Below are positions 6,408 to 35,047 of a stretch of DNA of 37,045 nucleotides, piece after piece (the first letter of the stretch is position 1; each line of letters starts with the position of its first letter). The translations under genes were made by a program, and so were the position numbers. This DNA comes from a virus: positions 1 through 37,045 of the IMG/VR virus record IMGVR_UViG_3300008448_000276; one strand, given 5' to 3'. The notes under the pieces are model-generated. The model ran no database searches. It saw nothing but the letters and a program-made list of their open reading frames with translations, and was not told where the DNA came from.

Positions 6408-6725
6408 ATGTCAATTCTTACATCTACAAAATATTATAGTTCTGATACTTTTTTTAATGGAAATGTAACCTTTTTTAAGGATATAAATTTACTTGGTCAA
6501 ATAAATCTTGATAATTTATATGTAAATAAATTAGGAGTTGGAGTAGCACTCACAGCAAATCATTTAAAAGTAGGAACAGCAGTTACAATTGCAAGTGGTG
6601 TTGTGACTGCTTCTAATGGATTTATTAGTGCTGCAAATACTACTCCAGTAAGAATTTCGCTAAGTGGAAATAGAGTTGTATTTACTGCCGTTGGTATCGG
6701 ATCAACCTCTTTTGTTCTGGCTTGA
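6408..6725 (+). CDS. Small fibre-like structural protein
   Basis: A 105-residue protein rich in Val, Thr, Ser, Gly and Asn. The GVGVALTANHLKVGTA and GIGSTSFVLA segments resemble the beta repeats of the large fibre proteins downstream. It follows the spike gene by two bases and its stop lies inside the -35 box of the next promoter. It is probably a virion component such as a spike cap or short fibre. No family recognised. Confidence 0.55.
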   Translation: MSILTSTKYYSSDTFFNGNVTFFKDINLLGQINLDNLYVNKLGVGVALTANHLKVGTAVTIASGVVTASNGFISAANTTPVRISLSGNRVVFTAVGIGSTSFVLA

Positions 6726-31548: not shown

Positions 31549-31563
31549 GGACAGTTAAAAAAC

Positions 31564-31622
31564 TGGTACACTGACCCCCTTGACTCCTGTTGAGGGGGTA
31601 TTATAATATTCAGGTAATCAAT
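31564..31622 (+). promoter_or_regulatory. Promoter of the first nuclease/methyltransferase pair
   Basis: TGGTAC at 31564-31569 lies 38 bases before TATAAT (31602-31607). TTGACT at 31580-31585 is a 16-base-spaced -35 inside a hairpin. GGTAATCAAT at 31613-31622 is the leader word shared with three other promoters. A box like TGGTAC (TGGCAC elsewhere) precedes four other promoters at 35-37 bases. Confidence 0.7.
31574..31599 (+). terminator. G/C-rich hairpin overlapping the -35 region
   Basis: ACCCCCTTGAC pairs with GTTGAGGGGGT (11 pairs, two G-U) around a TCCT loop. It contains the -35 hexamer of the downstream promoter and is followed by an A/T-rich tract (ATTATAATATT). It could end transcription of the CP12 gene, act as an operator, or both. 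Confidence 0.5.
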
Positions 31623-31630
31623 CAGTCCCA

Positions 31631-31642
31631 CCCAGTAGTGGG
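31631..31642 (+). promoter_or_regulatory. Small hairpin two bases before the nuclease-like start codon
   Basis: CCCA-GTAG-TGGG ends two bases before ATG 31645. The region has no clear Shine-Dalgarno, and the stem would occupy the ribosome-binding zone. This could hold down translation of a potentially toxic nuclease. The ATG at 31654 is an alternative start clear of the stem. Confidence 0.35.
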
Positions 31643-31644
31643 CA

Positions 31645-32361
31645 ATGAGTATTATGTTTATTGCTGATCTGTCTAAAGTCCGTGAGACCCGTCAAGTTAA
31701 AACGAACAAAGGTCTTGCTGAAACTATTATTCACACAGAAAACTTCACCGATAAAGATCTGAAGTCTTTTCTGAACTTTAAATCTTTCGATCGTCTTACT
31801 GAGTTGCTTGGTGAAAATCGTCAGTATGTCTATGATCTTTGCACTGGCAAGAGGGAAATTACTGCTTACGATTATGCACTGACTATGGCACATGGTTGTG
31901 CTATTTTGGCATCTCGCCAAGGTTCTAAGGATGAATCTTTTGTTCTTGATGAAATCAACAAAGTCTCCAAAGGTTTTGGGATTTATGTTCAGTCTCTGAA
32001 TAATCAAGATCTTCGTCCCACAAAAGATGGGCAGATTTTGAACAAAGAGGAGTTCAAGAAATCTGGTTTGTCTAAACTTGATTGCCTTAAATCGATTGAT
32101 GGTGTTATCAATGGCAAAGTTGAAGGTTATATCTTTGCCAAGATTGTGTTTGGTGAAGGTGGACATCAAGATAATGTCTTTCACGAAGCAGCACAATTTG
32201 GAGATTGGGCACAAAAGTTTGGTAAAGAGGATAAAATCTATGTCTTGTTGATTGACACTGATCTTAAAGCAAAGTATAATGAACTGAAAGAAAAGTATGA
32301 CTCTGGCAATGTCTGGGTTGTAAATCACACCGAATTTCAACAACGTCTTGGTATTGAATGA
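31645..32361 (+). CDS. Putative restriction endonuclease paired with a methyltransferase
   Basis: A 238-residue protein, not recognised as a named enzyme. Residues 40-95 look helix-turn-helix-like. Residues 145-183 (CLKSIDGVINGKVEGYIFAK, then GEGGHQDNVFHE) offer Asp152, Lys166 and Glu181. This could be a rearranged PD-(D/E)XK nuclease site, with Lys and Glu about 15 positions apart as in EcoRII/Cfr10I-type enzymes. The C-terminus KIYVLLIDTDLKAK...VWVVNHTEFQQRL is typical of restriction enzymes. It overlaps the adenine methyltransferase gene by ATGA, which is the strongest argument. Confirmation requires a profile search. Confidence 0.5.
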   Translation: MSIMFIADLSKVRETRQVKTNKGLAETIIHTENFTDKDLKSFLNFKSFDRLTELLGENRQYVYDLCTGKREITAYDYALTMAHGCAILASRQGSKDESFVLDEINKVSKGFGIYVQSLNNQDLRPTKDGQILNKEEFKKSGLSKLDCLKSIDGVINGKVEGYIFAKIVFGEGGHQDNVFHEAAQFGDWAQKFGKEDKIYVLLIDTDLKAKYNELKEKYDSGNVWVVNHTEFQQRLGIE

Positions 32362-33287
32362 GTAAACAATTGTTGGGTCAGTTTTATACAACAACTGACC
32401 CATTTTCAATTTCAGATGCCTTTAGCGCCTGGTATCAAATGGTTCCCAAGGATCAAACGATTCTAGAACCATTTGCTGGTGCTGGGCATCTTTTTTCATA
32501 TGTTGATGCTAACTGGAGTGGATTTGATTTAGAACCTAATCATCCAGATGTCATTCAACAGGATACAATTAAAGAGTTTCCAATTGGATATAAGGTTTGC
32601 ATTACAAATCCACCATATCTTGCAAAGACTGTTGTATCCAGGAAGAAACTACCTGTAGTGTTAAATCATGAAGATTTGTACTTAGATGCACTACAGAAGT
32701 GTCTGGACCATTGTGAATATGTCGCTGCGATTATTCCTAGTACGTTTTGGAATCAGAATCTATTCAAGGATAGACTCTATGCCTGGGACAAATTTGATAT
32801 GGAATTATTTTCAGATACGGACAATCCAGCAGGTGTTGCATATTTTGTACCAAATAATGTGAGTAGAACTCGTACTTTCATTAATGGTAAAGAAGTCCAC
32901 CTAAATGTAGAGAATACGCCTATAACAATTGATTTTCCTGTAATTTTCAACCCACAGGGTCTGTCGCCCTTCCTGGTAAATGGAATTGACACCGTAGAGC
33001 AGAATAACATTCATATTCGTAAAATTGAGGGATTTGATACTTCAAGTTTAGTAGATAAGACTGGTAAATGTAAATCAACCAATAGAAATATGTTCCCAAT
33101 CGAATGTGAATACTTGAGAGGGGAAGATCTACCAAAGATCAATCAAATGATCAATGATTGGAGAGAAGAAACTCAGGATTTTTACCTTACAAGTTTTAAA
33201 TCCTGTAAAAAAGATGGCAAGTATCGAAAAAGAATCTCATTTAAAGAGGTTCGATGGTTATTGCATAGGTTTTATAGTCCACTTTAA
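32358..33287 (+). CDS. N6-adenine DNA methyltransferase
   Basis: A 309-residue SAM-dependent methyltransferase. GQFYTT at 7-12 is motif X-like, EPFAGAG at 37-43 is motif I (SAM binding), FDLEP at 56-60 is motif II, and NPPY at 84-87 is the catalytic motif IV of N6-adenine enzymes. The order (X, I, IV) is that of gamma-class enzymes such as M.TaqI. It would modify phage or host DNA at a specific site, protecting against the paired nuclease or host restriction. ATGA overlap with the preceding gene. Confidence 0.85.
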   Translation: MSKQLLGQFYTTTDPFSISDAFSAWYQMVPKDQTILEPFAGAGHLFSYVDANWSGFDLEPNHPDVIQQDTIKEFPIGYKVCITNPPYLAKTVVSRKKLPVVLNHEDLYLDALQKCLDHCEYVAAIIPSTFWNQNLFKDRLYAWDKFDMELFSDTDNPAGVAYFVPNNVSRTRTFINGKEVHLNVENTPITIDFPVIFNPQGLSPFLVNGIDTVEQNNIHIRKIEGFDTSSLVDKTGKCKSTNRNMFPIECEYLRGEDLPKINQMINDWREETQDFYLTSFKSCKKDGKYRKRISFKEVRWLLHRFYSPL

Positions 33288-33358: not shown

Positions 33359-33745
33359 ATGGCAACCCGCTCTCGCATTGGTATCGAACTCTCTGATGGT
33401 TCCATCCTGTCTGCTTATCACCACTGGGATGGTTATGAGTCTTGGTTGGGTCGTATTCTGAAGACGCACTACAATAGCAAAGAACTTGCCGCCGAACTGA
33501 TTGACGGTGGTGATATGAGCACCTGCTGGAATGAAGAAAATCAACCCGAGTATTATAGTGCTCGCGGTGAGAATTGCCCTCCTCGCCTTGATGCTGACCT
33601 GTGTGAGTATCTTCTTCCTGATAATAGCGAAGAGTATGCTTATGTGTTTCGCAATGGTGAGTGGGTGTGCTACAACATGAATCAGTTTGATGATTCGAAA
33701 CTGCCTGAAATCGTTGAAATTCCTTCTGGTGCCCTTGCTGCTTGA
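33359..33745 (+). CDS. Conserved phage protein (MATRSRIGI family)
   Basis: A 128-residue protein starting MATRSRIGIELSDGSILSAY and containing HHWDGYESWLGRIL, a layout met in many tailed phages. The family has no assigned function. The remainder is acidic and ends in EIVEIPSGALAA. It follows its own promoter after a 25-base leader lacking a Shine-Dalgarno. Confidence 0.7.
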   Translation: MATRSRIGIELSDGSILSAYHHWDGYESWLGRILKTHYNSKELAAELIDGGDMSTCWNEENQPEYYSARGENCPPRLDADLCEYLLPDNSEEYAYVFRNGEWVCYNMNQFDDSKLPEIVEIPSGALAA

Positions 33746-33747
33746 TT

Positions 33748-34380
33748 ATGACTTACACTACAAATCGCCCTTTCCTTAAAAATCACAAAGTTCACGACTT
33801 TCATCAATCACTATCCAGAGAGAAAAGGATTATCGAAAGTGGTGAGCATCTTGCCGTCATTCATCAACTGAATATTGAGTTTGAAAAGATTGGTTTGAGG
33901 ATTGACTTTGATACTTTTGAAGATAATTATGGGAATGACAATCTATCTCAATTTAAAAATAGAGCAGGAGTAGATGCAACTTTTAATCTGATTTCTATTA
34001 AAACTGGAAAGATCGTAAAGAAAGGATTCACGATCGATTACAAGTTCCGCGATCCTAATGCTATTTGGGATGACTTTCTTGCAGAGGTTGTAAGTCAAGA
34101 TTTTATTCGGTTCAATTCAAAGAAACCGATCGTGCAGGGTTGGGCAACTTGCAAACATAAGATTAATGATGCTATACTTTATATTCTTCCCTACCATAAA
34201 AAAGCAACTCTTGTAATGCGTGAAGAATTGAAGAAAGGATTTGAGAAAAATCGTTTCCCTCTTGATGATCGCCGCCGCAAGATTGCAAAAAATAAAGGTT
34301 GGGATACTATCAGTTATGTGATTGATTGGGATCGCCTAACTAAAGTATGTCCAAGCACAATTATATTCGACTATGAGTGA
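33748..34380 (+). CDS. Putative PD-(D/E)XK-type nuclease paired with a methyltransferase
   Basis: A 210-residue protein. ATG 33748 follows the previous stop by two bases. AGVDATFNL (Asp76) and FTIDYKFRD (Asp97, Lys99) give the D...DxK spacing of PD-(D/E)XK nucleases, on strands separated by a turn. Downstream CKHKINDAILYILP fits the beta-strand that follows the active site. Basic C-terminus (DDRRRKIAKNKGW). It overlaps the next methyltransferase gene by eight bases, implying a coupled pair. It may be a restriction enzyme or another phage nuclease. Confidence 0.48.
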   Translation: MTYTTNRPFLKNHKVHDFHQSLSREKRIIESGEHLAVIHQLNIEFEKIGLRIDFDTFEDNYGNDNLSQFKNRAGVDATFNLISIKTGKIVKKGFTIDYKFRDPNAIWDDFLAEVVSQDFIRFNSKKPIVQGWATCKHKINDAILYILPYHKKATLVMREELKKGFEKNRFPLDDRRRKIAKNKGWDTISYVIDWDRLTKVCPSTIIFDYE

Positions 34381-35047
34381 TGTAAAACTTTATAACGACG
34401 ATTGCATGAATGTGCTCCCCTCCCTTGCGGATGGGAGCATTTCGCTTACCCTTACCGATATACCATACGATGAGGTAAATCGTAAGAGTGGTGGATTAAG
34501 AAATCTTGATAAAAGTCATGCAGATATTATTACATTTCCACTTGATGAGTTTATAGATGAAGTAGTTCGCGTAACTTCTGGAAGCATTTATATCTTTTGT
34601 GGTTCAGTTCAAGTCTCACACATTCGCAACCGATTGATAGAGCACGGTTTATCTGTGAGACACTGTATATGGGAGAAAACTAACCCATCTCCTATGAATG
34701 GACAATATATCTGGCTTTCAAGTATAGAGAACTGTGTGTTTGCTAAGAAGTCTGGTGCGACATTTAATGAGCATTGTAAGTCTGCTGTGTGGCGTTCTCC
34801 AACAGAACATTATAAAGATCACCCCACACCAAAACCAGTTAAGTTAATGTCAAGATTGATTGAAGCAAGTTCGAATATAGGTGATACTGTCTTGGATCCT
34901 TGTATGGGAAGTGGTGCAATTGGTGTTGCTGCTAAACAGTGTGGTAGAAATTTTGTTGGTGTTGAAATGAATTCGGAATATTTCAAACTGACAGAAGAGA
35001 GAATTAACAGTCAAAGCGACAGTATTTTGTCTTTTATGGACAGTTAG
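34373..35047 (+). CDS. DNA methyltransferase, beta-class N6/N4 type
   Basis: A 224-residue SAM-dependent enzyme. The catalytic motif IV comes first: TDIPYD at 28-33, a variant of DPPY. HPTPKPV at 150-156 and SAM motif I DPCMGSGAIG at 175-184 follow near the C-terminus. This IV-to-I order and the D-x-P-Y variant fit the N6_N4_Mtase family, including adenine and N4-cytosine enzymes. Substrate base cannot be decided. It probably modifies the site cut by the adjacent nuclease-like protein or defends phage DNA. Confidence 0.82.
   Translation: MSDVKLYNDDCMNVLPSLADGSISLTLTDIPYDEVNRKSGGLRNLDKSHADIITFPLDEFIDEVVRVTSGSIYIFCGSVQVSHIRNRLIEHGLSVRHCIWEKTNPSPMNGQYIWLSSIENCVFAKKSGATFNEHCKSAVWRSPTEHYKDHPTPKPVKLMSRLIEASSNIGDTVLDPCMGSGAIGVAAKQCGRNFVGVEMNSEYFKLTEERINSQSDSILSFMDS

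Follow-up and report, generated by a model that had tools for sequence, protein, structure and literature searches.

What would a nuclease-like gene joined to a DNA methyltransferase gene do in the genome of a lytic cyanophage? We addressed this question in virus record IMGVR_UViG_3300008448_000276, whose 37,045 bases are referred to here as the window. Baseplate and tail genes, a CP12-like gene and the closest relatives, S-SRM01 and S-SKS1, identify the virus as a T4-like cyanophage. An initial annotation had proposed a phage-borne restriction-modification pair coupled through an ATGA overlap, and both reading frames were confirmed, with the nuclease stop and the methyltransferase start sharing positions 32358-32361 (Table 1). 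On the evidence below, the two genes very probably form a type II restriction-modification pair carried by this phage: they are adjacent and separate, the first has a predicted nuclease fold with the acidic and lysine residue set, and the second carries methyltransferase motifs I and IV. The predicted nuclease fold with its invariant residues, the strict pairing of the two genes and purifying selection on both support the original proposal. The family to which the pair belongs has a name in databases already; what is new is the divergent member in its unusual carrier and a conserved putative promoter inside the nuclease gene.

Table 1. Features of the two gene pairs and their control regions in the window.
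Feature	Position	Strand	Basis
AACTGGTACACTG element, one of three exact AACTGGYACACTG copies in the window	31561..31573	+	copies at 31561, 33289, 35230
11-bp hairpin containing the -35 box	31574..31599	+	z -3.1
P_R, proposed promoter for the pair, TTGACT-16-TATAAT	31580..31607	+	11/12 consensus
5-bp stem right before the nuclease ATG	31627..31642	+	z -2.8
Restriction endonuclease-like gene, 238 aa, predicted PD-(D/E)XK core (E97, D152, K166, E181)	31645..32361	+	profile, conservation, model
Putative methyltransferase promoter P_M within the nuclease gene, TTGACA-17-TATAAT (12/12)	32252..32280	+	77 bases ahead of the methyltransferase ATG
Predicted DNA adenine (amino) methyltransferase gene, 309 aa, FAGAG + NPPY; start overlaps the nuclease stop (ATGA)	32358..33287	+	motifs, profile matches
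Second nuclease-like gene, 212 aa, V77-D78 ... D99-Y-K101	33742..34380	+	conserved residues, model
Second DNA methyltransferase gene, 224 aa, N6_N4_Mtase	34373..35047	+	profile matches

The methyltransferase matched the DNA methyltransferase family PHROG 18657 (E 2.5e-170), with a further PADLOC match and a weak match to Eco57I in Pfam. Its motif I (FAGAG) and motif IV (NPPY) are kept in 13 viral relatives, and this layout is the one predicted for an amino-methyltransferase acting on N6 of adenine or N4 of cytosine. The NPPY motif makes adenine the likely target base, and the earlier description of a clear NPPY adenine methyltransferase agrees with both motifs and the PHROG match.

In a profile search, the nuclease matched PHROG 18366, 'restriction endonuclease II', end to end (residues 1-237, E 1.3e-105), and RefSeq gives the same name to its relatives in S-RSM4, ACG-2014e/i, S-H38, P-SSM3 and P-SSM4. 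Identity to relatives in cyanophage isolates ranged from 33 to 70%; the window protein is a divergent member of PHROG 18366, whose cyanophage members share the downstream methyltransferase, and it differs in nothing essential from those of the phages just listed. The suggestion that the gene might represent an undescribed nuclease family thus has to be narrowed: the family is already annotated in PHROG and RefSeq, although the protein itself matched no entry in Pfam, NCBIfam or the PDB sequences. Queries of the PDB sequences with the nuclease, the methyltransferase and two nuclease profiles yielded no credible relative and no link between the nuclease and characterised restriction enzymes; rows for 4rzp and Mediator were chance matches. 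PADLOC gave the nuclease a weak 'control protein' row alone (E 0.02), and a plasmid collection contained no relative. No functional study of the family was found in the literature, where it appears as annotation alone, and the literature found, with most subscription journals outside its coverage, contained no description of the window's gene pair. If the restriction-enzyme reading is true, the family would supply restriction enzymes lacking PDB sequence relatives. Relatives of the nuclease occur in 49 viral loci and one archaeal metagenome-assembled genome (MAG). Across 29 aligned relatives, E97, P125, D152, K166, G170, G172, G173, Q175, N177, V178, E181 and D204 are invariant; D152, K166 and E181 had been singled out beforehand as nuclease-type residues, and E97, which had gone unnamed, is equally constant.

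The AlphaFold model of the nuclease (mean pLDDT 90.2) places E97 in a helix, followed by strands, one starting at D152 and one holding K166, a helix with E181 and a strand ending near D204; in the model, this helix-strands-helix-strand order is that of a PD-(D/E)XK core. Structural comparison with VIA-align returned mostly type II restriction enzymes, headed by BstEII (Z 8.3, rmsd 5.1, 187 aligned) and followed by PspGI (7.4), AgeI (7.3), Bse634I (7.1), BsoBI (6.7), Cfr10I (6.6), BsaWI (6.6), NgoMIV (6.4), MunI (6.4) and SgrAI (6.1); these are modest matches, and even a Z of 7-8 can reflect a common arrangement. Interspersed with these rows were Can2 and further nucleases sharing the fold, and in Foldseek the top match was no restriction enzyme but Can2, a CRISPR ancillary nuclease (E 2.8e-4). 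With scores this modest and Can2 at the head of the Foldseek list, the predicted PD-(D/E)XK fold class is well supported and the nearest family is not. BstEII, PspGI, AgeI, Bse634I, Cfr10I and NgoMIV are the nearest type II enzymes by fold and have in common with the window nuclease a lysine and then, in the following helix, a glutamate, but share no detectable sequence similarity with it. The Cfr10I/NgoMIV family has the pattern K-x12-RxE. The window nuclease, for which fold comparison with that family gave Z 6.4-7.4 and sequence searches gave no match, has K166-x14-E181 without the arginine, and its K166-E181 and D152-K166 spacings are unlike those of the Cfr10I pattern. Neither a confident match to a non-nuclease family nor a fold without a nuclease core turned up in the profile and structure searches, and the nuclease-like reading of the initial annotation stands.

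Several structural rows are of repair type, for example a Pyrococcus repair endonuclease and EndoMS, as would be expected if the protein were a resolvase- or mismatch-type repair or recombination enzyme sharing an operon with the methyltransferase. We regard this as very improbable, since restriction enzymes provide the best rows over the full length and the nuclease is tied to a methyltransferase. Moreover, 16 phage records, all cyanophages, encode nuclease relatives (34-70% identity, several of them bearing the RefSeq name above) against 411 that carry the tail gene, a distribution unlike that of a core repair enzyme and one that marks the nuclease as an accessory trait.

The pairing itself was examined in the 49 viral loci, of which 44 had enough flanking sequence; in all 44, a frame with NPPY or NPPF lies downstream of the nuclease. 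In the remaining five, a contig end truncates the locus, with the first methyltransferase residues visible in two (L048, which is the same contig as L023, and L065). As an upstream background, one motif-bearing ORF was found in 158 kb. Conversely, all methyltransferase loci with upstream flank contain the nuclease, and none has the methyltransferase alone. A distant pair was found in the archaeal MAG, where a nuclease with 36% identity over 106 aa is followed by a methyltransferase with 28% identity over 299 aa (E 2e-25). This MAG contains two members of the nuclease family (L129 1150-3437; L034 169-891), one of them with a methyltransferase partner; the archaeal locus is the single match in genome contigs, which were searched with narrow patterns. 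When 293 archaeal genomes from the same phylum were searched by profile, no genome matched besides the MAG with its two copies, and these members may possibly represent viral contamination. Since strict pairing over such wide divergence would otherwise be hard to explain, it argues that the two genes act together.

The same data bear on whether the nuclease could be a homing-type mobile endonuclease that lies beside the methyltransferase by chance. Free-standing homing endonucleases do occur in cyanophages (PMC3037559), and in some phages unrelated genes stand between nuclease and methyltransferase; yet a mobile enzyme of that kind is not bound to a methyltransferase, whereas here the order is fixed and the pairing strict across the 44 flanked loci and out to the archaeal MAG, and the distances of the two proteins correlate. 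These points leave the homing reading little credit, and we retain that of a restriction-modification pair. The insertions occupy the same place in each case (L002 4703-5815, L004 4702-5739, L020 5724-6758, L059 4708-5935), leave the pair still together, and belong to PHROG 33124, PHROG 2615 and one family without a match. Two other arrangements were seen beyond the methyltransferase. In L032 (6774-8498) and also in L063, a 575-aa HATPase_c_3 (GHKL-type) ATPase follows the pair, perhaps as a third component, and in P-SSM4 and P-SSM3 (L006 5607-6587, L007 5614-6594), a second, dam-like methyltransferase follows directly.

Both genes are under purifying selection, with dN/dS of 0.06-0.19 for the nuclease and 0.07-0.31 for the methyltransferase in nine comparisons. 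The two proteins have correlated pairwise distances (Mantel r 0.75, 0/5000 permutations), with departures such as that in S-H38 and L016 (nuclease 70-73%, methyltransferase 46-48% identical). The mismatch in L003 and L016, where the nuclease is 70-73% and the methyltransferase only 46-48% identical to that of the window, suggests exchange of the partner gene.

Many phage methyltransferases function without a nuclease. The methyltransferase might accordingly be an anti-restriction mask against host enzymes, with the nuclease as a decaying passenger; for a second methyltransferase in the window (Table 1), 21 of 52 related loci, L008 among them, have no nuclease-like gene beside it. A decaying gene, however, is difficult to reconcile with nuclease dN/dS about as low as that of its partner, with the invariance of catalytic-type residues across 29 relatives and with the lack of any methyltransferase-only locus where upstream flank is present, and we consider the passenger reading unlikely.

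Turning to the control of the restriction-modification pair, the region ahead of the nuclease contains several candidate elements (Table 1). A TATAAT-like site and the start of a gene follow each copy of AACTGGYACACTG within a few tens of bases; allowing at most two mismatches, the window contains five matches against 1.5 expected, a number reached in 0 of 100 shuffles. The element also occurs in the relatives L008, L081 and L084 and is possibly a shared phage promoter element. The site P_R fits the dedicated promoter that had been proposed, but promoter-like sites across the region are as numerous as in shuffled sequence. Similarly, the hairpin described as operator-like is real, and related versions occur in L008 (z -4.8) and L028 (z -4.2). 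Because its position in L029 and in the P-SSM4 clade is occupied by a hairpin with a T-run behind it, we read the window hairpin as probably a terminator for the upstream CP12-like gene that has merged with the promoter, which is simpler than assuming an operator. The third element, reported as a hairpin over the start codon, exists as a short stem positioned just before the ATG. By eye, a stem of 5 bp or shorter precedes the nuclease start in 11 other aligned sequences, with one compensatory change (L008), and the stem may limit nuclease translation.

Within the nuclease gene, we recognised the perfect promoter-like site P_M, which the initial annotation had missed together with the second nuclease-like/methyltransferase pair. 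Under synonymous resampling of the nuclease gene, a 12/12 site arises only 6% of the time. P_M is an exact 12/12 match in all 10 dereplicated lineages with permitting residues and an 11/12 match in two more. In these 12 lineages, the codon for D204 is always GAC, even though it accounts for 20% of all Asp codons there and the neighbouring Asp206 varies; likewise, position 203 always ends in TT, whereas seven other conserved Ile/Val sites vary. Elsewhere, GAC at 204 was found in 6 of 16 lineages (Fisher p 0.0009), a figure not readable as the outcome of independent trials, given that the lineages share ancestry. The codon signal is limited to lineages with Tyr at 211, a subset chosen after the pattern was seen, and across the whole nuclease gene in 28 pooled lineages there is no peak of synonymous conservation at P_M. 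Lineages with Phe at 211 (L010, L014, L017, L021) have no P_M, though in several of them the methyltransferase follows alike. The codon pattern points to selection on the DNA itself. By analogy with EcoRI, P_M probably expresses the methyltransferase alone, a clear regulatory prediction. In EcoRI and Eco29I, the restriction gene precedes the methyltransferase gene, an upstream promoter serves both and a methyltransferase promoter lies inside the restriction gene (PMC3874152). The window pair has this gene order and, as putative sites, the two promoters in common with the two operons, which have different carriers and no sequence relation found to it; they also have known reverse promoters, whereas none is seen as a strong site in the window pair. 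Two further perfect TTGACA-17-TATAAT sites lie on the + strand, at window positions 6722 and 20439; the - strand of the window has no such site at 11/12 or better.

From the anatomy of the locus, we infer cleavage, a shared target, promoter activity and a purpose as follows. The methyltransferase would mark adenines at one short sequence of the phage DNA, protecting replicating and packaged genomes, and the PD-(D/E)XK nuclease would cut the same sequence where it is unmarked, be it in the host chromosome or in another phage's DNA. P_R would drive both genes and P_M the methyltransferase alone, while the stem before the nuclease start would hold nuclease output down; P_M and the stem would thereby favour the methyltransferase over the nuclease, with protection coming first.

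Such a pair would be ordinary in kind and unusual in its carrier, and the destruction of unmarked DNA by some cyanophages may be due to it. As to its purpose, we lean slightly towards breakdown of host DNA, which may well be its role without being clearly favoured; exclusion of rival phages, with which the accessory distribution is also compatible, is a plausible but less probable purpose. In chloroviruses, restriction-modification nucleases are believed to break down host DNA and were not responsible for mutual exclusion (PMC7019647). Those pairs, as in PBCV-1, are likewise virus-borne with nuclease and methyltransferase genes side by side; chloroviruses, however, are eukaryotic algal viruses that package the nuclease in the virion. 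A survey of jumbo phages has argued that modifying its own DNA lets a phage attack that of its host or rivals (PMC7824862), and a 2010 review pointed to the absence of denA, denB and ndd from cyanomyoviruses, whose degradation of host DNA is either poor or follows an undescribed route (PMC2984593). The restriction-modification pair is a concrete candidate for host DNA degradation in a minority of cyanomyoviruses. More tentatively still, some T4-like cyanophages without the T4 genes that serve host DNA breakdown (denA, denB and ndd) might discriminate self by methylation and destroy host DNA with a restriction enzyme, protection being timed by P_M, and the window would hold two such pairs.

The second pair lies just downstream of the first, and its genes overlap by 8 bases. 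The model of its nuclease-like protein (pLDDT 80) resembles I-Ssp6803I, SPARDA nuclease domains, Hje and EcoRV-type enzymes at Z 3-6.6, and profile comparison found no relation between the second and the first nuclease. Wherever flank was available, the second nuclease-like gene has a methyltransferase neighbour. In L008, where the second methyltransferase stands without a nuclease-like gene beside it, the first pair is 99% identical to that of the window.
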